This document shows, piece after piece, positions 1,525 to 61,594 of a stretch of DNA of 64,000 nucleotides; position 1 is the first letter of the stretch; each line of letters starts with the position of its first letter. The DNA lies in assembly GCF_014698825.1 (NCBI RefSeq), contig NZ_JACJTT010000006.1, positions 146,046 to 210,045 on the forward strand, read 5' to 3'. The notes beneath the pieces are model-generated. The model saw nothing but the letters and a program-made list of their open reading frames with translations. It was not told the DNA's origin and made no database searches. This DNA is from Richelia sinica FACHB-800. Lineage in GTDB: Bacteria > Cyanobacteriota > Cyanobacteriia > Cyanobacteriales > Nostocaceae. The position numbers and the translations under genes were made by a program.

Positions 1525-1671
1525 ATACAAACATTTGGAGATTTTGTATTTTCCCAATGAGTTATTCTCTAAAAAAATATTTCTCCACCCCTTGACAAAA
1601 ATCTAACTTCCTGATTCTTGTTATAGAACTCTGTGCGCTCATTCATACTCAAGTTTTCTCACCATAATGAT

Positions 1672-1977
1672 ATTTGTCTGAATCAGGATAACCAGGATTA
1701 AAGGATGAACAGGATGGTAATTTTGGTTCTTCGGTACTTTTTATGGAGAACCCAGTTCAAAATCATTGAAAGTCTTATTGTGTCGGCATTTCATTGAAAA
1801 TATGGGCATAATTGTTTATAACCCTTGCCCCGTAAGGGTTTTATGATAATCAATTCTCAACTACCATAAAATATCCGAAAGAGCCGTAATTTTTAGATTG
1901 TTTATAATCATTTAAAGACAATCATCAAAAAACATCCTGTAAATCCTAAAATCCTGGACATCTTGATTCAGACAAAT
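1672..1977. repeat. Host inverted repeat (~45-nt arms) interrupted by a MITE
   Basis: The arm at 1672-1715 (TTTGTCTGAATCAGGATAAC...AACAGGAT) is the imperfect reverse complement of 1931-1977 (ATCCTGTAAATCCTAAAATC...GATTCAGACAAA). Without the 161-bp insertion and one copy of its 8-bp duplication, the arms would flank only about 50 nt and could form a long hairpin. The arms are diverged, so this is probably an old dispersed intergenic repeat. Confidence 0.7.
1725..1885. mobile_element. 161-bp MITE-like element, ISL3-type ends, 8-bp TSD
   Basis: The left end GGTTCTTCGGTACTTTTTAT is an imperfect inverted repeat of the right end, whose reverse complement is GGCTCTTTCGGATATTTTAT; 16 of the first 22 positions match. 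The element is bracketed by a perfect 8-bp direct repeat, GTAATTTT, at 1717-1724 and 1886-1893. Eight-bp duplications and GGCTCTTT-type termini are typical of ISL3-family elements. There is no coding capacity, so it would need a transposase in trans. An internal CCCTTGCCCCGTAAGGG palindrome lies near 1831-1847. Confidence 0.8.
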
Positions 1978-2038
1978 AAAATACCCAACATCCTCACAAA
2001 CAATCTATCCAAACCCCTACCCTAATATCACCCTAAAA

Positions 2039-2362
2039 CTAACTATCTTTAACTTCTAACTTAATTCGATATCCTAAAGCGTCTAAAAATTCAATCAAAG
2101 TATAAAGATGATTTCCAGAATTTTCAGACAGCATCTGCTCAAGTTGTTGATATTTCTGTTTAGCTGTTTCCGAAAGATTATTTGCTGCCAATCGGGAGTC
2201 AATAATATCTTTTAATGCAGAACGTAAGACTTCAGGTTCACGTCCTTCTTCATTCGATTCTAAAAAAGTTTCTAAATATGCAGCTGCTTCTTCAACATCT
2301 TGGAGAGATGAAATTAAATATTCTTTATAACTTTTACTTGTTGGGGTTATTACTTCTTTCAT
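2039..2362 (-). CDS. Antitoxin of a HigBA/RelBE-like addiction module
   Basis: A 107-residue acidic protein (SLQDVEEAAAYLETFLESNEEG near the N terminus, YTLIEFLDALGYRIKLEVKDS at the end). It follows the killer-protein gene on the same strand with a 29-bp overlap. This toxin-first order and size are typical of HigBA-type 'addiction module antidote' proteins, which bind the toxin and usually repress their own promoter. A helix-turn-helix is plausible in the C-terminal half but not certain by eye; the call rests largely on the partner. Confidence 0.7.
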   Translation of the reverse strand: MKEVITPTSKSYKEYLISSLQDVEEAAAYLETFLESNEEGREPEVLRSALKDIIDSRLAANNLSETAKQKYQQLEQMLSENSGNHLYTLIEFLDALGYRIKLEVKDS

Positions 2363-2678
2363 AATCTCTCCAATATTCCTTAGCTATCAAAATATCTTTT
2401 TCTTGTGTACTTTTATCGCCACCGCAAAGCAGGAGTACGATTGTAGTTCCTATCTGACCAAAATAGACACGATAACCTGGCCCGTAATCAATTTTGAGTT
2501 CACATACTCCTTCCCCAACTGCACGATAGTTTCCTAAATTACCTAATTCTACTCGCTTGAGCCTATTTCTTATTTTAGCTCTTGCCGTTCTATCTCGCAG
2601 TGAATCAAGCCATTCTTCAAAAGGAATTTTTCCTTCTAGTGTGATGTAGTTTTGAATATCTCTCGGTTGCGCGTCCAC
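2334..2678 (-). CDS. RelE/HigB-superfamily toxin (addiction module killer protein)
   Basis: 114 residues matching the phage-derived Gp49/HigB-like killer family: PFEEWLDSLRDRTARAKIRNRLKRVELGNLG, then VCELKIDYGPGYRVYF and VLLLCGGDKSTQEKDI. The conserved Arg/Tyr-rich segment (GYRVYF) and the GGDKSTQ strand are the recognisable landmarks. Members are usually ribosome-dependent mRNA interferases. It is the first gene of a two-gene unit, and its 3' end overlaps the antitoxin start by 29 bp, implying translational coupling. The ATG at 2678 gives the family's usual length. Confidence 0.85.
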   Translation of the reverse strand: MDAQPRDIQNYITLEGKIPFEEWLDSLRDRTARAKIRNRLKRVELGNLGNYRAVGEGVCELKIDYGPGYRVYFGQIGTTIVLLLCGGDKSTQEKDILIAKEYWRDYERSNNPNK

Positions 2679-2805
2679 TTTTCATCATTAATTCTGCATA
2701 ACTTAATTTACCCCGAAGGTGAACTTGACTTGAAATATGATTAAAAAACGCAAAGACACAAAAAACACTTTGCGCCTTTGCGTCTTTGCGCGAAACTAAC
2801 CTAAA

Positions 2806-2979
2806 CTATGCACCTTCCCGTAATTTATCTAAAACACTGCTGTCTTCCAAAGTCGAAGTATACCCCGACACCCCCTGACCAGCAGTCAAATTCCGCAACA
2901 ACCGACGCATAATACCCGATCGCGTTTTCGGCAAAGCATCAGTAAACCTGATTTCACCAGGACGAGCGATCGCTTGGAG
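2806..2979 (-). pseudogene. C-terminal fragment of acetyl-CoA synthetase (acsA remnant)
   Basis: The minus strand reads [20 protein letters not shown], then [12 protein letters not shown]...[16 protein letters not shown] and a TAG stop, clearly the last ~56 residues of an AMP-forming acetyl-CoA synthetase. Upstream of about 2979 the frame becomes unrelated, and no start codon or body of the gene is present. The family motif PKTRSGKIMRR has lost its Lys here (GGT ATT in place of Gly-Lys-Ile). That Lys is needed for the adenylation half-reaction, so loss fits decay. A full-length copy presumably exists elsewhere. Confidence 0.8.
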
Positions 2980-3083
2980 TGGCCAGCGAAGACTACGTAA
3001 AACAAAAAATATTTATGCAAAATGACAATTATCAAAGTGAAACAATATCACCTATTCCCTATTTTGCATAACTACTTATTTAC

Positions 3084-3980
3084 TTACTCAGCTAACAACT
3101 TGATAAACTTGCGAATTAAGCCAATTGTTACTGCTGGTAATTCTAATTGTGGTGTTAAACCAACATTGTCTAATTGTTGGAAAAACTTGATACTTTGAGG
3201 ATTAATTTGTGCTAAACGACGACCAATATCTGGCCCAGTAAATTGGGATTTTTGACCCCAAATAATCGCTGTGGGAGTGGTCAACTGTTGAATGTAGAGG
3301 GACAAGTCAAAGCATAGGTCACCACGCACGAAGGATAGTGCTGCATATTCAGCGTTTGGTTGCTGGGCAGATTGGAGATAGGCATCGACAATTTCTTGAT
3401 AGACTCGATTAGATTGAGCAAATTGTCTTTGGTCTAAAAAGCTCCGAATTCCTCCTTCTGTGGCAATGCCAGTGTTATATAATAGACGGTCAACAATGGG
3501 AACACTGACTATTTGGGCAAAAATGCTGCGGGTGTAGTCTTCACCAAAGTCTGAGAGTCCAGCAGGACTGACAAGAATGAGAGATTTAAATAACTGAGGA
3601 TAAGCGATCGCTACTCTAATAGTAAAGGCTGCGGTGAGAGAAGAGGCGATCGCTACTACTGGCCCGTTGCTAATTTGGCTAATAAATTCTTGAATCGTGG
3701 TCAAATAATCATCAAGTTTATAGTTTCTCTGGGGATGTTCGGAACGACCCCAACCGATTAAATCTGGTGCGACGACTCGGTATTCTGAGGCAAAAGCTGG
3801 ATATACCTTAGACCACTCATAGGCAGAAGACCCACCACCAAACCCATGTAAAAATACTAAAGTTTCTCGGTCAGATGTTAATTTTTCATCCTGCCAAGGT
3901 GCGCCTACGGCAGTATAGTATACCATCCTGCCTAGAGAAGTTTTGATGGAGCGTTGCTCAAATCCCAGTGGTTGCAACAT
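3084..3980 (-). CDS. Alpha/beta-hydrolase fold protein, catalytic His replaced
   Basis: 298 residues with an alpha/beta-hydrolase core: oxyanion region FLHGFGGGSSAYEW, strand EYRVVAPDLIGWGRSEHP, and nucleophile elbow VAIASSLTAAF (probable Ser in A-S-S-L). The expected C-terminal GH-x-P-x-x-E-x-P motif reads VGLTPQLELPAV, with Leu where the catalytic His normally sits. The elbow is also not the usual G-x-S-x-G. It may be an atypical hydrolase using another His or a non-catalytic member. No substrate can be assigned. It appears monocistronic, with ~100 bp of non-coding sequence before the acsA remnant. Confidence 0.75.
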   Translation of the reverse strand: MLQPLGFEQRSIKTSLGRMVYYTAVGAPWQDEKLTSDRETLVFLHGFGGGSSAYEWSKVYPAFASEYRVVAPDLIGWGRSEHPQRNYKLDDYLTTIQEFISQISNGPVVAIASSLTAAFTIRVAIAYPQLFKSLILVSPAGLSDFGEDYTRSIFAQIVSVPIVDRLLYNTGIATEGGIRSFLDQRQFAQSNRVYQEIVDAYLQSAQQPNAEYAALSFVRGDLCFDLSLYIQQLTTPTAIIWGQKSQFTGPDIGRRLAQINPQSIKFFQQLDNVGLTPQLELPAVTIGLIRKFIKLLAE

Positions 3981-4445
3981 AAGTATTTTTTGTTATGTCG
4001 AAATTATCAAGTGTCAACTTGAATGATTAATTAATCTCTCTTGTTTATTATCAACTAACCAATCCCTTCCCTGCTTCTCACTAGCGTTGGATGCTGTGGC
4101 CGTATTTTTTCATTGGTTGTTCTTTGCCTACAGAGACCATAGTTGTCTGATATTACATCGGTTGACTGAGGATAGCGATCGCTAAATTGAAGGTAAATCA
4201 GAGGTGACAAGGGATTTATTCACCAAATTTTTCCGGTTCCCATGTATTAACCATGTACAAGTATATAAACTGTCACTAAGGGAGGAACAGGGGCATGGGG
4301 TTTTATGCTATTTTGATTAAAAAACCAGTATTAATTCGGTTTACGAAAATAAATTTGTTGTGTTGAACCGCGTAGGCGATCGTATATCCCACAAAACAAT
4401 CGGTTGATAAAGATAAAAACTTAAAGTAGGGAAAAGCACTTTGTC
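3981..4445. other. Intergenic region between divergent genes (465 bp)
   Basis: This gap separates the minus-strand hydrolase from the plus-strand 198-residue protein and should carry both promoters. It contains two HIP1-type GCGATCG sites near 4175 and 4376. I see no RNA gene, no clear repeat and no ORF worth calling. Confidence 0.5.
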
Positions 4446-5042
4446 ATGGGCAATCTGGGTACTCTGCAAGCGGAAAAAATGCTCAGTTTTGAAGAACTAA
4501 ATCAAGAGTTTGACAACTTTGATTTGCCAAGCCCAATTGTCACCCCCATTTGTCAAAATAACGTTGAAGAATACATAGACCCTTCTCATAGTGATACTTC
4601 TAAATGTATTCGCATTAATTTTGATAATCTTAAATCCTTTGAAGTTGTTGAACGTCAATATGAGTCCTGGGGTGTAATCTTTAATAATTCTCTAGCTATA
4701 CAGCCTTCTAATCCCGCATTTCCAACCAATTCAGGGGCAACAGTATTAATGGCTTCTCCTAAAAATGGAGTATTAGAAGTCATATTTCTCGAACCTGTAG
4801 CTTGGGTGAGTGCCTTAGTGACCAGTTCACAACCATTGATATTTTCTGCTTACAACAAAACTGGCCAGCTACTGACTCAATCAACTTTACCGACCGCTAA
4901 TCTGGCAAATTCCGACTCCGCAATGTCACCGAATACATTATTATCATTAGAGGCAAAGGATATCAAAAGCGTGACTTTCTGTGCCTTTGATGGGCAATTT
5001 ACAATTGATGAATTTCGCTTTTGTTTTTCCTCCTTAGCCTGA
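4446..5042 (+). CDS. Conserved cyanobacterial protein of unknown function (198 aa)
   Basis: A soluble protein with no signal peptide. The core IRINFDNLKSFEVVERQYESWGVIFNNSLAIQPSNPAFP resembles the beta-sandwich modules of cyanobacterial surface and PEP-CTERM proteins that begin with 'F(x)nG(V/I)xF...aiqPSNPAF'. The following strands (GVLEVIFLEPVAWVSALV, SVTFCAFDGQFTIDEFRFCF) fit a jelly-roll fold. It lacks an anchor or a secretion signal. The ATG at 4446 is chosen; Met12 (4479) is an alternative. Function not recognised. The next gene lies 53 bp downstream on the same strand. Confidence 0.6.
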   Translation: MGNLGTLQAEKMLSFEELNQEFDNFDLPSPIVTPICQNNVEEYIDPSHSDTSKCIRINFDNLKSFEVVERQYESWGVIFNNSLAIQPSNPAFPTNSGATVLMASPKNGVLEVIFLEPVAWVSALVTSSQPLIFSAYNKTGQLLTQSTLPTANLANSDSAMSPNTLLSLEAKDIKSVTFCAFDGQFTIDEFRFCFSSLA

Positions 5043-5095
5043 TATTAGGTAAAGATTGTAAAGTTATTGATCTTGTATTCGCGTAGGTACACACG

Positions 5096-5842
5096 GTGAC
5101 ACAGGCTTCTTCTTGGTGGCAATTAATCAATCAAGTTCCAGGAATGAAAACAGGAAGCGCAAAGCAGCGTCATCTCCAGCGTTTTTCAGAACCAGGATTG
5201 CTGCTTGGGTTGCTAACAGTTATTGTCGCTATGCTGTTCTGGAACTGGAAGCTGTTATTAGCACTAGTAGTGGGTATTAGTGTCATGACTTGTGCTTATT
5301 CCCTGCAAAAATGGAATTGGCAACTCAGTTGGTTAGAAATCCGTAAGTTTTTAGATAGTGCTAACCATCGGTTAGCTTTAGCTGTTACCAGTGGTGGTAT
5401 AGCTACAGTTGTGACATATATGGCTGCATCCATCTGGGTTGATGCTCAAAGTCATTGGATTGCTGCTGGTGCCATTGTCCAAGGAATAGGGACAATCTTA
5501 ACTTTAGTGCTGTTGGTGTGGCAAATCTTCAGTCTCAATGGTAAGCGAGAAGAAGATTATTTAGAACAGCTATTACATAATTTAACTGCACCAGACCCTT
5601 TAAAACGTTTGGTTGCAGTTCGTCAGTTGACCAAATATCTTAGCCGTCCCCAGGTTGATACAGCTATACAGCAAGATGTAATTGAATGTTTGCAGCTATT
5701 ACTGACTCAAGAAGAAGAAGAAGTGATTCGTCAAGCAGCTTTGAATAGTTTGCAAATTTTAACGGATACAGAGATATTATCATCCACACCTTTGCAACCT
5801 TTAAGACCTATACCCACTAAATTAAAACAAGAACTAGTTTAA
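5096..5842 (+). CDS. Membrane protein with C-terminal helical (HEAT-like) region
   Basis: 248 residues starting at GTG 5096. Residues ~33-70 and ~93-148 hold four hydrophobic segments (LLLGLLTVIVAMLFW, LLLALVVGISVMTC, LALAVTSGGIATVVTYMAA, IVQGIGTILTLVLLVWQIF). The C-terminal ~90 residues are amphipathic helices with a HEAT/armadillo-like rhythm (DPLKRLVAVRQLTKYL, EEEVIRQAALNSLQIL). It looks like a membrane-anchored scaffold or adaptor; nothing identifies a function. It converges with tilS and overlaps it tail to tail by 4 bp. Confidence 0.6.
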   Translation: MTQASSWWQLINQVPGMKTGSAKQRHLQRFSEPGLLLGLLTVIVAMLFWNWKLLLALVVGISVMTCAYSLQKWNWQLSWLEIRKFLDSANHRLALAVTSGGIATVVTYMAASIWVDAQSHWIAAGAIVQGIGTILTLVLLVWQIFSLNGKREEDYLEQLLHNLTAPDPLKRLVAVRQLTKYLSRPQVDTAIQQDVIECLQLLLTQEEEEVIRQAALNSLQILTDTEILSSTPLQPLRPIPTKLKQELV

Positions 5843-6870
5843 TTTAGTATAAAATATATCCAATCTCCTTCTACTTTGGCGATCGCACCACCAGGAAAAG
5901 GATCTGTTTGAGAACGGTTAGGGGCAGTAATTAAAGCTGTTAATTTTTCAATATGTTCAAACCCTGGTGCCTGTGGCAATATAGCTTGTAAGGTTTGACG
6001 CATCACTCGCCGTTGTAAGGCTAAGGGTGCGCTTTTTAATTTTTTGCGGTTTAAACGCCAGATTTCCTGGTCATTTTCCTCCAGTAATTCCTCTGCATCT
6101 TCTCGTAATTTTTGAGCAATTTCTTCTAAGTATTCTACCTCTGCTTGTAAGAGTTCTGCCGTTTGTGCTAAGGCTAATTCTACTTGGGGGTTGAAATTTC
6201 GTTGCAAATACGGCACTAAATCGAGACGGATGCGGTTACGAGCATATTGTAAGTCTTGATTAGTAGAATCGTCCCAAATGGGTAAGTTGAACTGTTGGCA
6301 AAATGCCTCAGTTTGGGAACGGGTAACATCTAAAAGTGGACGGACGACGGTAATTGCTGTTGTTATAGGACGTTGCCAAGTTAAGGCTTGTAAACCATCG
6401 GCACCAGTACCCCGCACTAAATTATAAAGTAGGGTTTCCGAGCGATCGCTCGCCGTATGTCCAGTGACGATATATTGATAATTATGAACCTGGGCAATTC
6501 TGGTTAAAGCCTGATATCGCCAATTTCGCGCCTTTGCTTCCGTAGAAACATCTTCTTCAGCTACAGCTAAATAAAATGGTAGATTCCAACCTTGCGCTAA
6601 ATTTTCCACATGTATCGCATTAGCTTGGGAATCATTCCGCCACCGATGGTCACAATGGGCAATACCTAAATTCCATCCCCATTTTGATTGTAAATCTAAT
6701 AGTAATTTAATTAAACATAGAGAATCCTGACCACCAGAAACAGCCACTAATAAACTTTGGTTATGTTTAAATAAACAACGGCTGCGGATAGTGCGGTGTA
6801 CTTGGGCATGGAGGGGAGTCCATAAACTTTTCAACATTTGGGAATATAGACCGATGAAACTTAGCACCAA
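5839..6870 (-). CDS. tilS: tRNA(Ile)-lysidine synthetase TilS
   Basis: Modifies C34 of the CAU-anticodon tRNA(Ile) to lysidine, using ATP and lysine, so that AUA is read as Ile. The N-type ATP-pyrophosphatase PP-loop VSGGQDS is at residues 44-50, followed by HCDHRW, TGHTASDRSETLLYNLVRGTG and the WDDSTNQDLQYARNRIR block typical of TilS. At 343 residues it is full length for the short cyanobacterial form without the long E. coli C-terminal domains. Met12 (6837) is an alternative start. It lies 17 bp downstream of the acylphosphatase gene on the same strand, so the two are probably cotranscribed. Confidence 0.95.
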   Translation of the reverse strand: MVLSFIGLYSQMLKSLWTPLHAQVHRTIRSRCLFKHNQSLLVAVSGGQDSLCLIKLLLDLQSKWGWNLGIAHCDHRWRNDSQANAIHVENLAQGWNLPFYLAVAEEDVSTEAKARNWRYQALTRIAQVHNYQYIVTGHTASDRSETLLYNLVRGTGADGLQALTWQRPITTAITVVRPLLDVTRSQTEAFCQQFNLPIWDDSTNQDLQYARNRIRLDLVPYLQRNFNPQVELALAQTAELLQAEVEYLEEIAQKLREDAEELLEENDQEIWRLNRKKLKSAPLALQRRVMRQTLQAILPQAPGFEHIEKLTALITAPNRSQTDPFPGGAIAKVEGDWIYFILN

Positions 6871-6887
6871 TATACTGAAACTAACTG

Positions 6888-7187
6888 CTAACGCCTCACC
6901 TCAAATCCCGACAACCCTTCTGGTGACTCATATTCCAGTACCACTTCCTTCACCATTGCCGCAGGTGGCCCAGCATGACACCACCTTACCATTTCCTCCA
7001 CAACTTCCCTAGCCCCCTCAAATACTGCTTCCACACGGCTATCAGGCAAATTTCGCACCCAACCAGTTAAACCCAATTCTGTGGCAGTATCTACAGTGGC
7101 ATAGCGATATCCTACCCCTTGAACTCGACCGGCAATAAAAACATGGGCGCGTACTTGTTTTGGTGGTGAACTATTTTGCATAAACAA
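6888..7187 (-). CDS. acyP: Acylphosphatase
   Basis: 99 residues with the family signature GRVQGVGYR (residues 20-28, Arg28 binding phosphate) and the GWVRNLPD block carrying the catalytic Asn46. It hydrolyses acyl phosphates such as acetyl- or carbamoyl-phosphate in the cytosol. The ATG at 7187 is used; Met3 is possible. It is the first gene of a probable two-gene unit with tilS. Confidence 0.93.
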   Translation of the reverse strand: MFMQNSSPPKQVRAHVFIAGRVQGVGYRYATVDTATELGLTGWVRNLPDSRVEAVFEGAREVVEEMVRWCHAGPPAAMVKEVVLEYESPEGLSGFEVRR

Positions 7188-7568
7188 ATCTGCTTAATTA
7201 AAAATGTAAAAAAGCTAATCTTGACATTCTTTTCCACTATTTTCAACAGTTACTGCGTCATGATTTTAGTTAGGGAATGATAATTTTTGATGACTTATAC
7301 TCCAGTATATTGGATATTAATGGAAGTCATACATTAAAATTATAAACATCCTATTGTAGACATACTCATCAACACCGTGTAATTTTACTAATTTTTAATT
7401 TATCTTGTAGTCACTAAAGCAAATAATTAATTTTTGAACAACTAATATCATTTATATCTTCCCTCATCCCCTATCTAAAACTGAATTGTGATATTTTTTC
7501 AAGATTCAGTATGATTTAGATACATACTCACAAACAACATCTCTATAATTACAGATTTTGAACCTATC
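7188..7568. other. AT-rich intergenic region between divergent genes
   Basis: This 381-bp stretch separates the minus-strand acylphosphatase/tilS unit from the plus-strand DUF1823 gene. It is AT-rich and presumably holds both promoters. I could not single out a convincing element, repeat or RNA. Confidence 0.4.
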
Positions 7569-56998: not shown

Positions 56999-57160
56999 GA
57001 TTATTTAAGAAAAATAAATTACTAATTTTTAGTCAATTTTCAATCATCGCAGAAATTTTGACTATTGACTAATTACTTATAAGTATTGGCAATATCTATG
57101 ACTAGTGAGAGAGTATTGCCAAATCTTCCATATAGCCGGTAGTTTTATCTGGGTTTGATT

Positions 57161-57829
57161 TTAGTGATGAACAGCACCATCAGGCATAATTGCACCGGCT
57201 AAGTTAGCGCCTATTAATTTTACCAGTAGGCGATCGCCTGAGCGAATCCTTGCCCCTGTCAAATCAGCACCCCGTAAGTCCGCACCACTCAAATCAGCAC
57301 CAATTAAATTCGCTGAACGTAAATTTGCCTCTCTCAAGTCAGCTAACAACAAATTGGCTCTAAATAAATTCGCTTCTGACAAGTCCGCACCTCTGAGGAT
57401 GACTTTGTGCATAAATGTATCACTGAGATTTGCACCGCTTAAATTTGCATAACTCAAGTTACGTCCAGATAAATCTCGATTACTCAAATTAGCACGACAG
57501 AAGTTTTGACCACTCAAGTCTTGATTTGGTTGTGGTGCTTGATACTTGCTTTGACTTTGGTAACTGTAGCTGGATGATTTTGTCGGTTGCTGATAAGCCG
57601 TAGAGTAGTGGTTTGTATGGGGTTTATCTTTAATAGACCGCAACTTATCCCGTGCTTCATTAATCGCTTTGAGCTTTTCTTGTGCTTTTTGCTGTAAGCG
57701 GATATTGTCTTTAGGAAGGCGGTCGGGATGCCAAACAAAGACCAAATCTTTGTAAGCCTGGTTTACCTCTTCTAATGTGGCTCCTGGCTCCAATTCCAAG
57801 ACTCTATAATACCGCTCCATTTCGCTCAT
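57161..57829 (-). CDS. J-domain protein fused to pentapeptide repeats
   Basis: 222 residues. An N-terminal J domain (~4-65) includes the HPD tripeptide in YKDLVFVWHPDRLPKDN, which stimulates DnaK ATPase. A Ser/Gln/Tyr-rich linker (~75-105) follows, then ~22 pentapeptide units (LSGQNFCRANLSNRDLSGRN, ANLSGANLSD, ADLSEANLFRANLLLADLREA). No zinc-finger or DnaJ C-terminal domains. A client-specific co-chaperone with a beta-helix platform is the likely design. This fusion occurs in other cyanobacteria. Confidence 0.9.
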   Translation of the reverse strand: MSEMERYYRVLELEPGATLEEVNQAYKDLVFVWHPDRLPKDNIRLQQKAQEKLKAINEARDKLRSIKDKPHTNHYSTAYQQPTKSSSYSYQSQSKYQAPQPNQDLSGQNFCRANLSNRDLSGRNLSYANLSGANLSDTFMHKVILRGADLSEANLFRANLLLADLREANLRSANLIGADLSGADLRGADLTGARIRSGDRLLVKLIGANLAGAIMPDGAVHH

Positions 57830-58095
57830 ACGATGTATTGGTAGACAATCAGATCATAATTAAATTAATTATTATGAGTAAAATAGCCATCTGTCAGTAT
57901 AGACATTGAGTAAATTTCTAGTTTATTTGCTATTTCTGGTGAATATTTAAATTCTTTGGCAATCAAGGTTAGTTTTTGGGCTGTCAATTAGTAAAAAATA
58001 CTACTAAAAACGGTAGGTATTTATTCATGATGATTCAGATATTGACAAAGTAAGAGTGACTGTTATTTTTAACTGGTAATTTGTAATTTTTAATT

Positions 58096-58587
58096 TTACC
58101 TAGTGGCTCTATTTCTCCACCGGGTGATGGCACGGAAATAAGCTGAAATAGGAATTTGATAAACTTCAATAAAAATCCAAATAATAATTGACAAATGTAA
58201 CAAAAAAGTTAGGATTGTCCAAATATAGGGAATCCAGGTGAGAGGAGCATGAGGAGTAGGGGGAAAATAATAAGCTCCTAACCCAATTAAAGCTGTGGGT
58301 AAAATCACAAACGCGATCGCTGCTAATCCATAACCCCAGCCTAGTTCTACACCCTCTAACTGAGCCTCTGTCCACTTTACACCATTCCACCGCCACATGA
58401 GAGGAGGTTCTCTAGAGGGCATTTTGATTTGCTGAAGTTCTAGATTAACAGTAAAAATCTCCTGGCAAAAATCACAAGACATAGCCTCCATCATCGGCAT
58501 ATGGGAAATTTTACCAATGCGACAAACAGGACAAGGATAATCCTCATGAAAGTTTAAAGGTGTAGCAAAAATTTTGGGTTTGGACAT
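58096..58587 (-). CDS. Zinc-ribbon membrane protein
   Basis: ATG 58587 (MSKPKIFATPLNFHEDYPCP) is preferred to the TTG two codons upstream. A zinc-ribbon near the N terminus, CPVC...CDFC (C-x2-C-x16-C-x2-C), is followed by a W-rich segment (PPLMWRWNGVKWTEAQLEG). Two or three membrane helices follow (~75-100, ~108-150), and the protein ends in a basic tail (RAITRWRNRATR). Function unknown; conserved-looking in cyanobacteria. Confidence 0.65.
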   Translation of the reverse strand: MSKPKIFATPLNFHEDYPCPVCRIGKISHMPMMEAMSCDFCQEIFTVNLELQQIKMPSREPPLMWRWNGVKWTEAQLEGVELGWGYGLAAIAFVILPTALIGLGAYYFPPTPHAPLTWIPYIWTILTFLLHLSIIIWIFIEVYQIPISAYFRAITRWRNRATR

Positions 58588-58593
58588 AATCAA

Positions 58594-58894
58594 CCTGGTA
58601 CTGCTGGAAGATGAATTTCATGAACAAGCTAGAGTACCGCTAGGCGGAATTAAAAATCAAAAATCCAAGATTCAATATTGAAAAAGCTCATAGAGAGCTA
58701 CAATCTAAAGCTGTGCCAAACCTGAAACTAAAAGTTATTGAGCCTTTTATTTTAGACTGTCGCACACCCGTAACTCTCACAGTTGTAATGAGTCTATCGC
58801 TTTTTGTCCTGAGATGGGGATCTTGACAGCCAAGAATCTTTTTGTTAACGTCTGTGAATAAGTCTATAAACTTTTCTTAGGCAACGCCACACAA
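58594..58894. other. Region upstream of the tandem aromatic leader peptides
   Basis: Non-coding stretch between the divergent zinc-ribbon gene and the leader array. The part at 58823-58870 holds promoter-like hexamers listed separately. No other structure seen. Confidence 0.5.
58823..58870 (+). promoter_or_regulatory. Candidate promoter for the leader-array/DAHP synthase transcript
   Basis: TTGACA at 58823-58828 matches a -35 consensus; TAACGT at 58846-58851 (17-bp spacing) is a weak -10. Alternatively TATAAA at 58865-58870 is a good -10 with a poor -35. Either would start transcription just before the first leader ATG (58895). Confidence 0.4.
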
Positions 58895-58951
58895 ATGTTC
58901 AGCAATAATTCCTATTTTTATTTTTGGTTTAGGGTGGTTCACCGGGGGTGA
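58895..58951 (+). CDS. Aromatic leader peptide 1 of the DAHP synthase attenuator (18 aa)
   Basis: ATG-TTC-AGC... to TGA encodes M-F-S-N-N-S-Y-F-Y-F-W-F-R-V-V-H-R-G. Seven of 18 residues are aromatic, six of them consecutive (YFYFWF at 58913-58930). The last five codons form the 5' arm (58936-58946) of a hairpin with 58975-58985. Position upstream of a terminator and of a DAHP synthase gene makes this a regulatory leader peptide rather than a functional protein. The ribosome-binding site is weak (TTAGG at 58877). Confidence 0.8.
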   Translation: MFSNNSYFYFWFRVVHRG

Positions 58952-58985
58952 ATCGAGTTTCCTGATGGAAACTGCCCGGTGAACC
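58936..58985 (+). promoter_or_regulatory. Antiterminator hairpin of attenuator 1
   Basis: GGTTCACCGGG (58936-58946) pairs perfectly with CCCGGTGAACC (58975-58985); a nested hairpin AGTTTCC-TGAT-GGAAACT (58956-58973) fills the loop. The 5' arm overlaps codons 14-18 of leader peptide 1. The 3' arm shares 58982-58985 with the terminator stem, so formation of one shortens the other. Confidence 0.7.
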
Positions 58986-59016
58986 GCAGAGCGAACTCTG
59001 CGGTTTTTGTTTTTTT
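58982..59016 (+). terminator. Intrinsic terminator 1 (attenuator 1)
   Basis: AACCGCAGAG (58982-58991), tetraloop CGAA, CTCTGCGGTT (58996-59005): a 10-bp perfect stem, then TTTGTTTTTTT. It lies between the two leader peptides. If the antiterminator forms, the stem is cut to GCAGAG/CTCTGC and is separated from the T-run. Confidence 0.9.
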
Positions 59017-59035
59017 AGGAGAAAATTTCCCGATC

Positions 59036-59098
59036 ATGTCCTATCTAACTAACTGGTTTTATGGCTTTTACTTTTGGCCCAGCCTCAGTTCCGGGTAG
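59036..59098 (+). CDS. Aromatic leader peptide 2 of the DAHP synthase attenuator (20 aa)
   Basis: ATG 59036 to TAG 59096-59098. Residues 3-14 read Y-L-T-N-W-F-Y-G-F-Y-F-W; eight of 20 residues are aromatic. AGGAG is at 59017-59021. The last three codons and the stop (59087-59096) constitute the 5' arm of the antiterminator. It shares the FYFW core with leader 1 (TTT-TAT/C-TTT-TGG), suggesting duplication of the module. Confidence 0.85.
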   Translation: MSYLTNWFYGFYFWPSLSSG

Positions 59099-59136
59099 AT
59101 AGCGTCATGTGAATGAATCAGAACGCACCCGGAACT
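59087..59136 (+). promoter_or_regulatory. Antiterminator hairpin of attenuator 2
   Basis: AGTTCCGGGT (59087-59096) is the exact complement of ACCCGGAACT (59127-59136): 10 bp across a 30-nt loop. The 3' arm is the same segment that forms the left side of terminator 2, so the two structures are mutually exclusive. Confidence 0.8.
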
Positions 59137-59156
59137 CTCAAGAGTCCGGGTTTTTT
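59127..59156 (+). terminator. Intrinsic terminator 2 (attenuator 2)
   Basis: ACCCGGA-A-CTC (59127-59137), loop TCAA, GAG-TCCGGGT (59142-59151), followed by TTTTTG. The stem is 10 bp with one bulged A. It ends only 20 bp before the DAHP synthase ATG, so it can act only by stopping transcription into that gene. Confidence 0.85.
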
Positions 59157-59176
59157 GTTGTAAGGAGACTCAAAAG

Positions 59177-60049
59177 ATGATTAACGCTAAACTGGCTGCT
59201 CAATCCCATAGTGATCACCAAACTGTGGTCAAACTTTCCGAAACAGTGGCTTTCGGGGGAGAGGAATTAGTGATTATTGGTGGCCCCTGTGCGGTGGAAA
59301 GTTGGGAACAAATGGAGACCGTCGCTCAAGAATTGGCAGCTACATCTGTTCACGGGTTGCGGGGTGGTGTTTATAAACCACGCACCTCTCCCTACGCTTT
59401 CCAAGGTCTAGGTGAAGAAGGTTTAGCGATTTTGGCTCAGGTGCGATCGCTCTACAATTTACCAGTAGTCACAGAAGTTATGTCTATTTCCCAAATTGAA
59501 GTTGTCGCTGCCCATGTGGATATGCTGCAAGTAGGTAGCCGTAATATGCAAAACTTCGACTTACTCAAGGCTTTGGGACAAGCTGGTAAACCCATATTAC
59601 TCAAACGGGGATTAGCAGCCACCATTGAAGAATTTGTCATGGCTGCCGAATATATTTTAAGTCACGGGAATCCTGATGTCGTCCTCTGTGAAAGAGGGAT
59701 TCGCAGTTTCGATAATTACACCCGTAACGTCTTAGATTTAGGGGCAGTAGCAGCACTGAAACAAATCACTCACTTACCCGTAATTGTCGATCCTTCCCAT
59801 GCTGTTGGTAAGCGGGAACTAATTGCACCTGTGGCTAAGGCTGCGGTGGCTTGTGGTGCGGATGGCTTAATTATCGAATGTCACCCAGTACCAGAAAAAT
59901 CCGTTTCCGATGCTCGTCAAGCCCTTTCCTTGGCAGATATGGCTAATTTAGTCAATAGTTTAAAGCCAGTAGCCACAGCCGTAGGACGGACAATATCAGA
60001 ACCAATGGGGGTAGGTTCACAACCTGCCCCTATTTATTGTGCTGCTTGA
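59177..60049 (+). CDS. aroF: DAHP synthase, class I beta (AroF/KDOPS-like type)
   Basis: First step of the shikimate pathway from PEP and erythrose-4-phosphate. 290 residues, the short beta form without an N-terminal ACT or C-terminal chorismate-mutase domain. Landmarks: ELVIIGGPCAVESWEQM, HGLRGGVYKPRTSPYAFQGLG, DMLQVGSRNMQNFDLLK, KPILLKRGLAATIEEFVMAAEYI, VVLCERGIRSFD and the metal site VIVDPSHAVGKREL plus IIECHPVPEKSVSD. AAGGAG at 59162-59167 precedes ATG 59177. Lacking a regulatory domain, it is probably controlled mainly by the tandem attenuator upstream. Confidence 0.95.
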   Translation: MINAKLAAQSHSDHQTVVKLSETVAFGGEELVIIGGPCAVESWEQMETVAQELAATSVHGLRGGVYKPRTSPYAFQGLGEEGLAILAQVRSLYNLPVVTEVMSISQIEVVAAHVDMLQVGSRNMQNFDLLKALGQAGKPILLKRGLAATIEEFVMAAEYILSHGNPDVVLCERGIRSFDNYTRNVLDLGAVAALKQITHLPVIVDPSHAVGKRELIAPVAKAAVACGADGLIIECHPVPEKSVSDARQALSLADMANLVNSLKPVATAVGRTISEPMGVGSQPAPIYCAA

Positions 60050-60220
60050 ATTCCACAAGAGAGCGATCGCTTATTTCCGCACTTCCACCTTGATGATCAT
60101 CCATGGTGGGAGTGAAATTTCCACATCCTCCTCCACGATTTTTCCACAAATGTACCGTACTCTCCAAATATCTACTCTAAATTCTCAGGCTGCAATCTAC
60201 TTCAAGGTAACGGAAAAATT

Positions 60221-60451
60221 ATGGGTAACTATGAAAATGCCGAACAAGGTCTTTTAGCTTGGACAGAAGTACCTAAAGTTTATTGGATTACCTACAGACA
60301 AGCATCCGGTAGCTGTTTCAGCTACAGAAACGAAATTATTATGGGTATTTCTACTGGCGCTGTCCGCAAACTCGCCGAATTAATGATGAAACCAGGTGAA
60401 CGGGTGAGTGCAGTTAAACATATTTACCCACTCCAACCAATAAATTTATAA
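60221..60451 (+). CDS. Conserved small protein, unknown function (76 aa)
   Basis: Starts at ATG 60221 (MGNYENAEQGLLAWTEVPKV). Soluble, mixed alpha/beta by appearance (VYWITYRQASGSCFSYRNEIIMGISTGAVRKLAELMM). Not recognised as a named family. Its end overlaps the convergent KAS gene by 6 bp. The 170-bp gap before it contains no terminator that I can see, so read-through from the DAHP synthase gene is possible. Confidence 0.55.
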   Translation: MGNYENAEQGLLAWTEVPKVYWITYRQASGSCFSYRNEIIMGISTGAVRKLAELMMKPGERVSAVKHIYPLQPINL

Positions 60452-61594
60452 CCGAGGTTGACCACAAGCCAGAACAGCATTTTGCCCACCAAATCCAAAG
60501 CTGAAACAGAGCATTTTTTCTACAGGAGTTGTTTGCGGTGTACAGATAAAATTCAAATCAAACTCTGGCTGCTGCAAACCAACACAAGGGGGTAATGTTT
60601 TCTGTTGTAAGGCTTTGAGGGCAAAAGCTACTCCTAGAGCACCCGATGCACCCAAAGTATGACCAGTGCTACCTTTAGTGGCTAAAATTGACACTTGTGG
60701 TGGAAATAGATGGTCAATAATTTGACTTTCAATGTGGTCATTCAAACGAGTAGCCGTACCATGAGTATGAATGAAATCTATATCTTGAGGATTGAGTCCA
60801 CTGCGGGTCAAACATTGTTGAATAGCAGCGATCGCACTTTTGCCTGTTGGTTCTGGTTGATTAGGGTGATAAGCATCTGCTGTTAAACCAAAACCTAATA
60901 TCTCTCCATAAATTTTGGCTTGACGTTGCTGGGCTAATGCTGCTGATTCGAGAATCAATATCGCTCCACCTTCACCTAAAACTAATCCTTCCCTGTGAAC
61001 GTCAAAAGGATAGGCCCCCGTACTAGCTAAAGCACCCATTTGCTGAAAACCAGCAATTGTGAGCGGTGTAATTGGGGCTTCCACAGCACCAGCGATCGCT
61101 CTTTGATATTGTCCAGTTTGAATTAAAAAAGTTGCTTGAGCAATGGCCCAAATCCCCGTAGCACAAGCTGCCATTGGTGCCAAAACTGTGCCCACAGAAC
61201 CAATTTGACGAGCCACTGCCATGGCATTCATGTGGGGTAAACTATCCAACCATCTTTCTAGGAATCTTGGTTGCCCATCTTGACCAGACATTTGCCTAGC
61301 CATATTTTCCCAAACAGCTTGATAGCCACGACTAGAACCAATCACCACCGCACAATCTGCTAAAGGAGGAACCAGTTCTCCATCAGCTAAGGCAGCAGCT
61401 ACAAGCATCTGCGTCAAATGACCTAACTCCGATGGTTGGGAAGAAATCAACCCTAGAGGAATCTGATGTAGTTCAGGAAATGGTTGATTTAACTTAATTC
61501 CCGTCTGACCAGTTAATAAACCTTGCCAGCTATCCTCTAGGGTTTGACCTAATGCGGAAACTAAACCAATACCAGTAACAACAACCTGGGACAA
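60446..61594 (-). CDS. Beta-ketoacyl-ACP synthase (KAS II/FabF-like)
   Basis: 382 residues with the thiolase fold. Catalytic Cys144 in PMAACATGIWAIAQA, His in IHTHGTATRLNDHIE, and Lys/His in ATKGSTGHTLGASGALG. About 30 residues shorter than housekeeping FabF (~412), so it may be the second, divergent KAS found in many cyanobacteria rather than the main FabF. It condenses malonyl-ACP with acyl-ACP. Only this one fatty-acid gene is present; acpP and a classic fabF are not adjacent. Confidence 0.88.
   Translation of the reverse strand: MSQVVVTGIGLVSALGQTLEDSWQGLLTGQTGIKLNQPFPELHQIPLGLISSQPSELGHLTQMLVAAALADGELVPPLADCAVVIGSSRGYQAVWENMARQMSGQDGQPRFLERWLDSLPHMNAMAVARQIGSVGTVLAPMAACATGIWAIAQATFLIQTGQYQRAIAGAVEAPITPLTIAGFQQMGALASTGAYPFDVHREGLVLGEGGAILILESAALAQQRQAKIYGEILGFGLTADAYHPNQPEPTGKSAIAAIQQCLTRSGLNPQDIDFIHTHGTATRLNDHIESQIIDHLFPPQVSILATKGSTGHTLGASGALGVAFALKALQQKTLPPCVGLQQPEFDLNFICTPQTTPVEKMLCFSFGFGGQNAVLACGQPRL

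Follow-up and report, generated by a model that had tools for sequence, protein, structure and literature searches.

Leader-peptide attenuation is a textbook mechanism in enterobacteria. The his leader follows the general logic, with codons for the pathway product and mutually exclusive antiterminator and terminator structures. The trp, phe and his leaders all differ from the locus described here in having one leader, one amino acid and one attenuator, plus an established pause hairpin. The likeness of trp and phe to our locus, as these systems are described in the available text of PMC11802643, lies in pathway-product codons and in the mutual exclusion of antiterminator and terminator. In Corynebacterium glutamicum, an aromatic leader (aroR) lies directly before a DAHP synthase gene (aroF), as at our locus; ribosome stalling there raises transcription, and the system was reported to respond to Phe, not Tyr, limitation (Neshat et al. 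2014; available portions of PMC11802643 and PMC7356990). In contrast to our locus, the same portions describe one leader with Phe-Tyr-Phe and mention no Trp codon, and the organism belongs to another phylum. Salmonella mgtCBR resembles our locus in having two short ORFs, with an attenuator each, on one leader mRNA; it differs in that its attenuators sense ATP and proline and act additively (PMC3641672, available portions). Hyper-sensitivity of attenuation has been modeled in PMC1183508, whose main text uses neither "tandem" nor "in series". A 2010 survey, in its available text, gave ermC and its own Firmicutes case as the only leader peptide systems it knew of outside Proteobacteria and Actinobacteria (PMC2965389). 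The initial annotation of our locus knew of no described example in a cyanobacterium, and we found none in the open-access literature, a scope that leaves out most subscription papers.

The window, a 64,000-nucleotide stretch of the Richelia sinica FACHB-800 genome, had been annotated with one ribosome-mediated attenuator directly upstream of a DAHP synthase gene. By scanning the upstream regions of related genes, we noticed an extra aromatic ORF in nearly all of them. The annotated leader (59036-59098) is the second of two predicted attenuator modules in a row. The initial annotation is thus supported for that half and incomplete, as it missed the upstream ORF, antiterminator and terminator (58895-59016) and a promoter-like sequence (58823-58851). 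The features are:

58823..58851, plus strand: predicted sigma70-like promoter, TTGACA-N17-TAACGT, from a pattern count; missed by a default promoter scan
58895..58951, plus strand: leader ORF 1, MFSNNSYFYFWFRVVHRG and stop; leader 1 with terminator 1 in 77/79 upstream regions
58936..58946, plus strand: antiterminator 1, 5' strand, GGTTCACCGGG, at the end of leader 1; pairs with 58975-58985 (covariation)
58975..58985, plus strand: antiterminator 1, 3' strand, CCCGGTGAACC; 5-nt overlap with the 5' arm of terminator 1, at the base of the hairpin
58981..59016, plus strand: terminator 1, 11-bp stem (58981-59006) and T-rich tail (folding, covariation)
59036..59098, plus strand: leader ORF 2, MSYLTNWFYGFYFWPSLSSG and stop, 20 codons; leader 2 with terminator 2 in 75/79 upstream regions
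59087..59096, plus strand: antiterminator 2, 5' strand, AGTTCCGGGT, at the end of leader 2; pairs with 59127-59136 (covariation)
59127..59136, plus strand: shared strand ACCCGGAACT, both the 3' strand of antiterminator 2 and the 5' arm of terminator 2 (three-way covariation)
59127..59156, plus strand: terminator 2, stem of 59127-59136 with 59142-59151, then a T run (folding, covariation)
59177..60049, plus strand: aroF-type gene, type I-beta DAHP synthase, 290 aa (TIGR01361; Pfam)

We propose that the two leaders and their hairpin pairs are, very probably, two ribosome-mediated transcription attenuators in series before the DAHP synthase gene. Both ORFs, the predicted terminator-like hairpins, the alternative pairings, their order and their conservation are established at the sequence level. 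Two predicted terminator-like hairpins with T runs, both conserved, lie between the leader ORFs and the gene, and each antiterminator overlaps its terminator, in full in module 2 and by 5 nt in module 1. As in mgtCBR, two ORFs, each with a putative attenuator of its own, appear to lie on one leader mRNA. Unlike in mgtCBR, both cyanobacterial leaders bear the same three kinds of aromatic codons and precede a biosynthetic gene, and this speaks against different signals for the two predicted attenuators. Ribosome-mediated attenuation as such is already known; what is new would be the doubled form with its putative two stages.

For module 2, the features annotated earlier were recovered. Residues 3-14 of the 20-codon leader contain two Trp, three Phe and three Tyr. 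The exact complementarity of 59087-59096 to 59127-59136 and the alternative terminator with 59142-59151 are present, and the T run ends 20 nt before the aroF ATG (59177), as claimed. The AGGAG site is likewise there (59017-59021), with a long spacing of 14 nt to the leader 2 ATG. When folded, the antiterminator 2 stretch (−21.9 kcal/mol, z −4.3) and terminator 2 (−15.3 kcal/mol, z −3.8) were each better than 200/200 shuffles, and terminator 1 (−17.3 kcal/mol) was matched by 0/200. The whole 166-nt leader was of ordinary stability (z −1.1), with 24/200 shuffles folding equally well or better. A candidate early pause or protector hairpin of module 2 appeared solely in the minimum energy fold of the window. 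The module 1 candidate, a local hairpin at the end of leader 1 (−10.1 kcal/mol), showed covariation no better than shuffles.

To assess conservation, we compiled two sets of upstream regions. Set A was picked through the DAHP synthase protein, not the leader, from the best 80 of 571 relatives; 78 GTDB loci and the window gave 79 upstream regions of at least 400 nt, L009 and L016 being too short. Set B comprised 36 short-type upstream regions from a 386-genome sample of the phylum; of the 38 source genomes, two were left aside, the one containing the window and G380 with its interrupted gene, and the regions partly represent the same species as set A (e.g., L088 and L014). By criteria that relied on sequence features of the terminators, both modules were found in 73/79 regions of set A and 32 of the 36 in set B, where leader 1 with terminator 1 occurred in 35 and leader 2 with terminator 2 in 33. 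One module was missing by these criteria in 10/115 regions (L039, L040, L044, L048, L073 and L078 of set A; L104, L112, L116 and L118 of set B). A terminator-2-like sequence is present in L048 and L040, which failed the energy threshold or had no leader stop ahead of it. In the Calothrix loci L039 and L040, the reading frame of leader 2 stays open across terminator 2, with no stop codon ahead of it; translation there might hinder rather than promote termination.

We also used a sequence-agnostic detector, which asks for an ORF in which 5 or more of 12 residues are aromatic and, within 110 nt, a hairpin of −12 kcal/mol or lower with a T run. It called two modules in 103 of the 115 real upstream regions, one in 11 and none in 1. 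Two modules were called in 0/395 controls (0/230 shuffles, 0/20 long-type paralogs, 0/13 other-lineage DAHP synthase upstream regions and 0/132 downstream flanks). Calls of one or more modules were made in 5/230, 2/20, 0/13 and 1/132 of these, respectively. In favour of the initial annotation, which had named this as a check, the leader frame and the aromatic codons are conserved among relatives, being kept across diverse Cyanobacteriota; the element is not limited to Nostocales.

The element is closely tied to one gene. In the window's genome, the covariance model of module 1 (R1) gave one strong match (E 1.4e-20) and a next match at E 0.46, at which level a second element elsewhere in the genome was set aside. 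In the 386 genomes it gave 37 matches at E ≤ 1.8e-9. By coordinates, 36 of these 37 adjoin a short-type gene, in one case interrupted by an insertion, and the 37th (G030) precedes a decayed aroF remnant. Counted by genome, the element occurs in 36 of the 38 carrying a short-type gene (E ≤ 1e-100); the genomes G141 and G343 have no match to the module 1 model, yet each carries one aromatic leader with a terminator. Scores of R1 and of model R2 at known loci arise by construction, because the models contain the window and loci later found. Four further module 1 matches (E 0.0008 to 0.0084) were regarded as chance. R2 touched module 1 in register at E 0.77, so homology of the two modules by duplication is a guess. 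Another R2 match in the window (2677-2734, minus strand, E 0.016) was rejected, as two small genes lie there and no aromatic leader was seen. Two small overlapping ORFs of 114 and 107 aa (2039-2678, minus strand) resemble a HigBA-type toxin-antitoxin pair.

The ferredoxin-like domain of DAHP synthase mediates feedback inhibition. Pfam analysis of the window enzyme returned DAHP_synth_1 only, plus one NeuB match, with the ferredoxin-like domain absent, which bears out the earlier description of a beta-type enzyme without an allosteric domain. The genome's other DAHP synthase, a 347-aa paralog, has the catalytic domain together with the ferredoxin-like PF18152 (E 1.2e-17). Because 0/20 long-type upstream regions carry two modules, the doubled attenuator goes with the domain-less form of the enzyme. 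The aroF product catalyzes the opening step of the aromatic amino acid pathway, and the attenuator-type leaders precede its gene. Thus, as with the trp, phe and his attenuators, the gene (TIGR01361) serves the biosynthesis of the amino acids that would be sensed.

To examine the alternative helices, we aligned 62 of 102 distinct tandem regions, picked for diversity, with loci lacking a module excluded. Paired cells made up 89.1% (antiterminator 1), 92.8% (terminator 1), 87.1% (antiterminator 2) and 92.1% (terminator 2), and the covariation scores were 0.226, 0.086, 0.217 and 0.283, against 0.106, 0.061, 0.163 and 0.182 in shuffles. Each of the four scores was reached by 0/500 shuffles. Antiterminator 2 was no better than shuffles in pairs with two-sided changes (377/500 reached it) or in further pair types (335/500), and the further pair types of terminator 1 were reached by 61/500. 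Since related sequences can beat shuffles without any structure, we also slid the registers, which preserves relatedness. All four helices then had a lower covariation score and fewer paired cells; for antiterminator 2, some slid registers had more pairs with two-sided changes, which counts against it.

The strongest single sign comes from the shared strand, where one base covaries with its partner in the antiterminator and also with its partner in the terminator. In this column triple of module 2 (18/79/94), the 62 loci read T-A-T in 23, C-G-C in 13, C-G-T in 4 and mixed in 22. The covariation of both alternative hairpins, put forward in the initial annotation as a check, was thus seen in the triple as well as in scores above all shuffles. 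Further, duplexes of a locus's own strands were on average stronger than those formed with strands of other loci (−26.8 vs −23.7 and −18.7 vs −16.9 kcal/mol), in 85 and 68 of 102 loci, respectively; with shuffled strands the means were weaker still (−14.9 and −10.3 kcal/mol).

The arrangement suggests how each module might work. If charged aromatic tRNAs are plentiful, the ribosome would reach the leader stop and cover the leader end, and the terminator would form. If any of the three aromatic tRNAs is scarce, the ribosome would stall upstream in the leader, the leader end could capture the terminator's 5' part by pairing, and transcription would continue. We infer from this ribosome stalling, antitermination and a response to starvation, such that lack of any one aromatic amino acid would derepress the gene, as proposed earlier for the single module. 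The pair would then control, at the transcript level, an isozyme without the ferredoxin-like domain. Because the two stages would be sequential, only polymerases that pass both would make full-length mRNA; leakage in the basal state would then be close to the product of the two single leakages, and the response steeper than with one stage.

We then asked where a ribosome would sit. If a ribosome footprint is assumed, the antiterminator 5' strand is on average 89% (module 1) and 98% (module 2) covered when the ribosome is at the stop, and 83% and 95% free when it is at an aromatic codon, a geometry that suits the model. In masked-ribosome equilibrium folding of module 2 in the window, the terminator probability was 0.93 without a ribosome and 0.94 with one at the stop, and it fell to 0.00-0.10 with the ribosome at Tyr 59042 through Phe 59066. 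It was 0.82-0.94 at the last three aromatic codons, against the model. Also against the model, module 1 of the window stayed at 0.72 or above at all ribosome positions, partly because antiterminator 1 leaves room for a shortened form of the terminator stem. Over the 62 loci, the mean terminator values without a ribosome, at the stop and at aromatic codons were 0.43, 0.85 and 0.59 for module 1 and 0.81, 0.95 and 0.75 for module 2, and the difference exceeded 0.2 in 37/62 and 22/62 loci, respectively.

A second scheme folded only the RNA made before the terminator 3' arm. In the window, the antiterminator value was then 0.85-1.00 at aromatic stalls and, with the ribosome at the stop, 0.07-0.10 (module 1) and 0.39-0.47 (module 2); it was 1.00 even without a ribosome, which goes against the model. 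Across the 62 loci, where the measure counts any pairing with the leader, it was 0.86-0.99 for ribosomes at aromatic codons; with the ribosome at the stop it still came to 0.43-0.49, likewise against the model.

The coding content of the leaders would fit sensing of all three aromatic amino acids. Trp and Phe codons occur in each leader at 62/62 loci and Tyr codons at 61/62. Among similar pairs of loci, changed aromatic codons of one member remained aromatic in 504 cases and lost this character in 290 for leader 1; for leader 2 the counts were 762 and 320. With both members counted, the differences in leader 1 were 274 synonymous, 230 F/Y/W swaps and 591 aromatic-to-other, and those in leader 2 were 524, 238 and 553. 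Therefore the aromatic residues are retained as a kind, not rigidly, and the frequent aromatic-to-other differences (591 and 553) count against the attenuator model. So does the scarcity of Shine-Dalgarno-like 4-mers, found before leader 1 in only 5/62 loci and before leader 2 in only 15/62.

Could these short ORFs act in another way? Arrest peptides of the TnaC kind, sensing free aromatic amino acids or another ligand rather than uncharged tRNA, would employ the same hairpins, and the leader peptides are partly well conserved, with FYFW in both. We consider this highly improbable in view of the F/Y/W swaps just given and of 93 distinct peptides among 102 loci for each leader, and the conserved leader ends are accounted for by RNA pairing. 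A strongly conserved RNA structure before a biosynthetic gene might also be a riboswitch, a T-box or a protein-bound leader that controls termination, the short ORFs being incidental. Such a reading is scarcely credible, as the enrichment of aromatic codons is confined, in each module, to a single frame: their fraction at the 62 loci is 0.48 in frame vs 0.20 and 0.14 in the other frames for leader 1, and 0.50 vs 0.19 and 0.13 for leader 2. Rfam gave no match at E up to 1 in 57000-61000 of the window, nor any at gathering thresholds in L003, L064, L079 and L162, and a riboswitch or T-box was set aside on this ground.

A further explanation keeps module 2 as the only attenuator of aroF and assigns the ORF and hairpin upstream of it to a separate RNA, a short transcript or a small RNA ending at terminator 1. 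It draws on the little switching of the window's module 1 in equilibrium folding and on L044, L078 and L116, where module 2 occurs without a recognised module 1 and so can stand alone; in L078 and L116, a promoter-like sequence before leader 2 was seen by eye. The distribution of a promoter pattern makes this explanation very improbable. The pattern TTGACN-N16..18-TANNNT lies within 130 nt 5' of leader 1 in 58/61 loci (0.45/61 in shuffles), a count that is not a blind test because the pattern was fitted after inspecting the upstream regions, the controls using the same pattern. It was found in 0/62 loci between the two leaders and in 0/62 between terminator 2 and the gene. Leader 2 of the window begins 19 nt past the terminator 1 tail, and module 1 has its own covarying antiterminator and aromatic reading frame. 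Two attenuators in series remain our preferred reading.

The serial attenuators would extend leader-peptide attenuation to many families of Cyanobacteriota, apparently in doubled form and with all three aromatic codons per leader; named carriers include Nostocaceae, Leptolyngbyaceae, Oculatellaceae and Coleofasciculaceae. They would offer a natural system for studying the gain from placing two like attenuators in series, relatives with a single module serving as comparisons. They also suggest what restrains an isozyme that has no allosteric domain, a point relevant to shikimate-pathway engineering in cyanobacteria.

Within another class of the phylum, that of G343, whose many families of small genomes suggest Vampirovibrionia, we examined 11 of 13 places at E < 1e-90. 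Two aromatic leaders were found in 5 of these 11 upstream regions, one in 5 and none in 1, and terminator 2 was called in 3 of the 5 with two leaders. Four loci of this class from two families (L168, L169, L171 and L172) carry, ahead of the DAHP synthase gene, a single aromatic leader and a terminator-like hairpin of the form CCGC...GCGG; the single-leader loci possibly represent the form before doubling. SZAS LIN-3 (L079), with both modules, lies outside the others in a protein tree whose fork is weakly supported and whose root sits on one very long branch. Common ancestry and transfer are indistinguishable on these data as the origin of the element in both classes. We offer only tentatively, with slightly more doubt than confidence, the wider picture in which the doubled pan-aromatic attenuator is as old as the split between photosynthetic cyanobacteria and this other class, acts as a multiplicative, sharpened switch replacing allosteric feedback, and is preceded by the single-module forms as its pre-duplication state.

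Two loci deserve description in their own right. In G030 (L160, reverse complement, 1045-1397), leader 1 is retained before a 94-codon decayed aroF remnant, as if aroF had been lost recently. In G380 (L161, reverse complement, about 1585-7421), both leaders are intact upstream of a short-type aroF that is interrupted by about 5.8 kb. This insert is bounded by a 16-nt direct repeat and contains a 425-aa ORF that resembles a recombinase; possibly the insert is an excision element of the sort found in nifD or hupL of heterocystous cyanobacteria.
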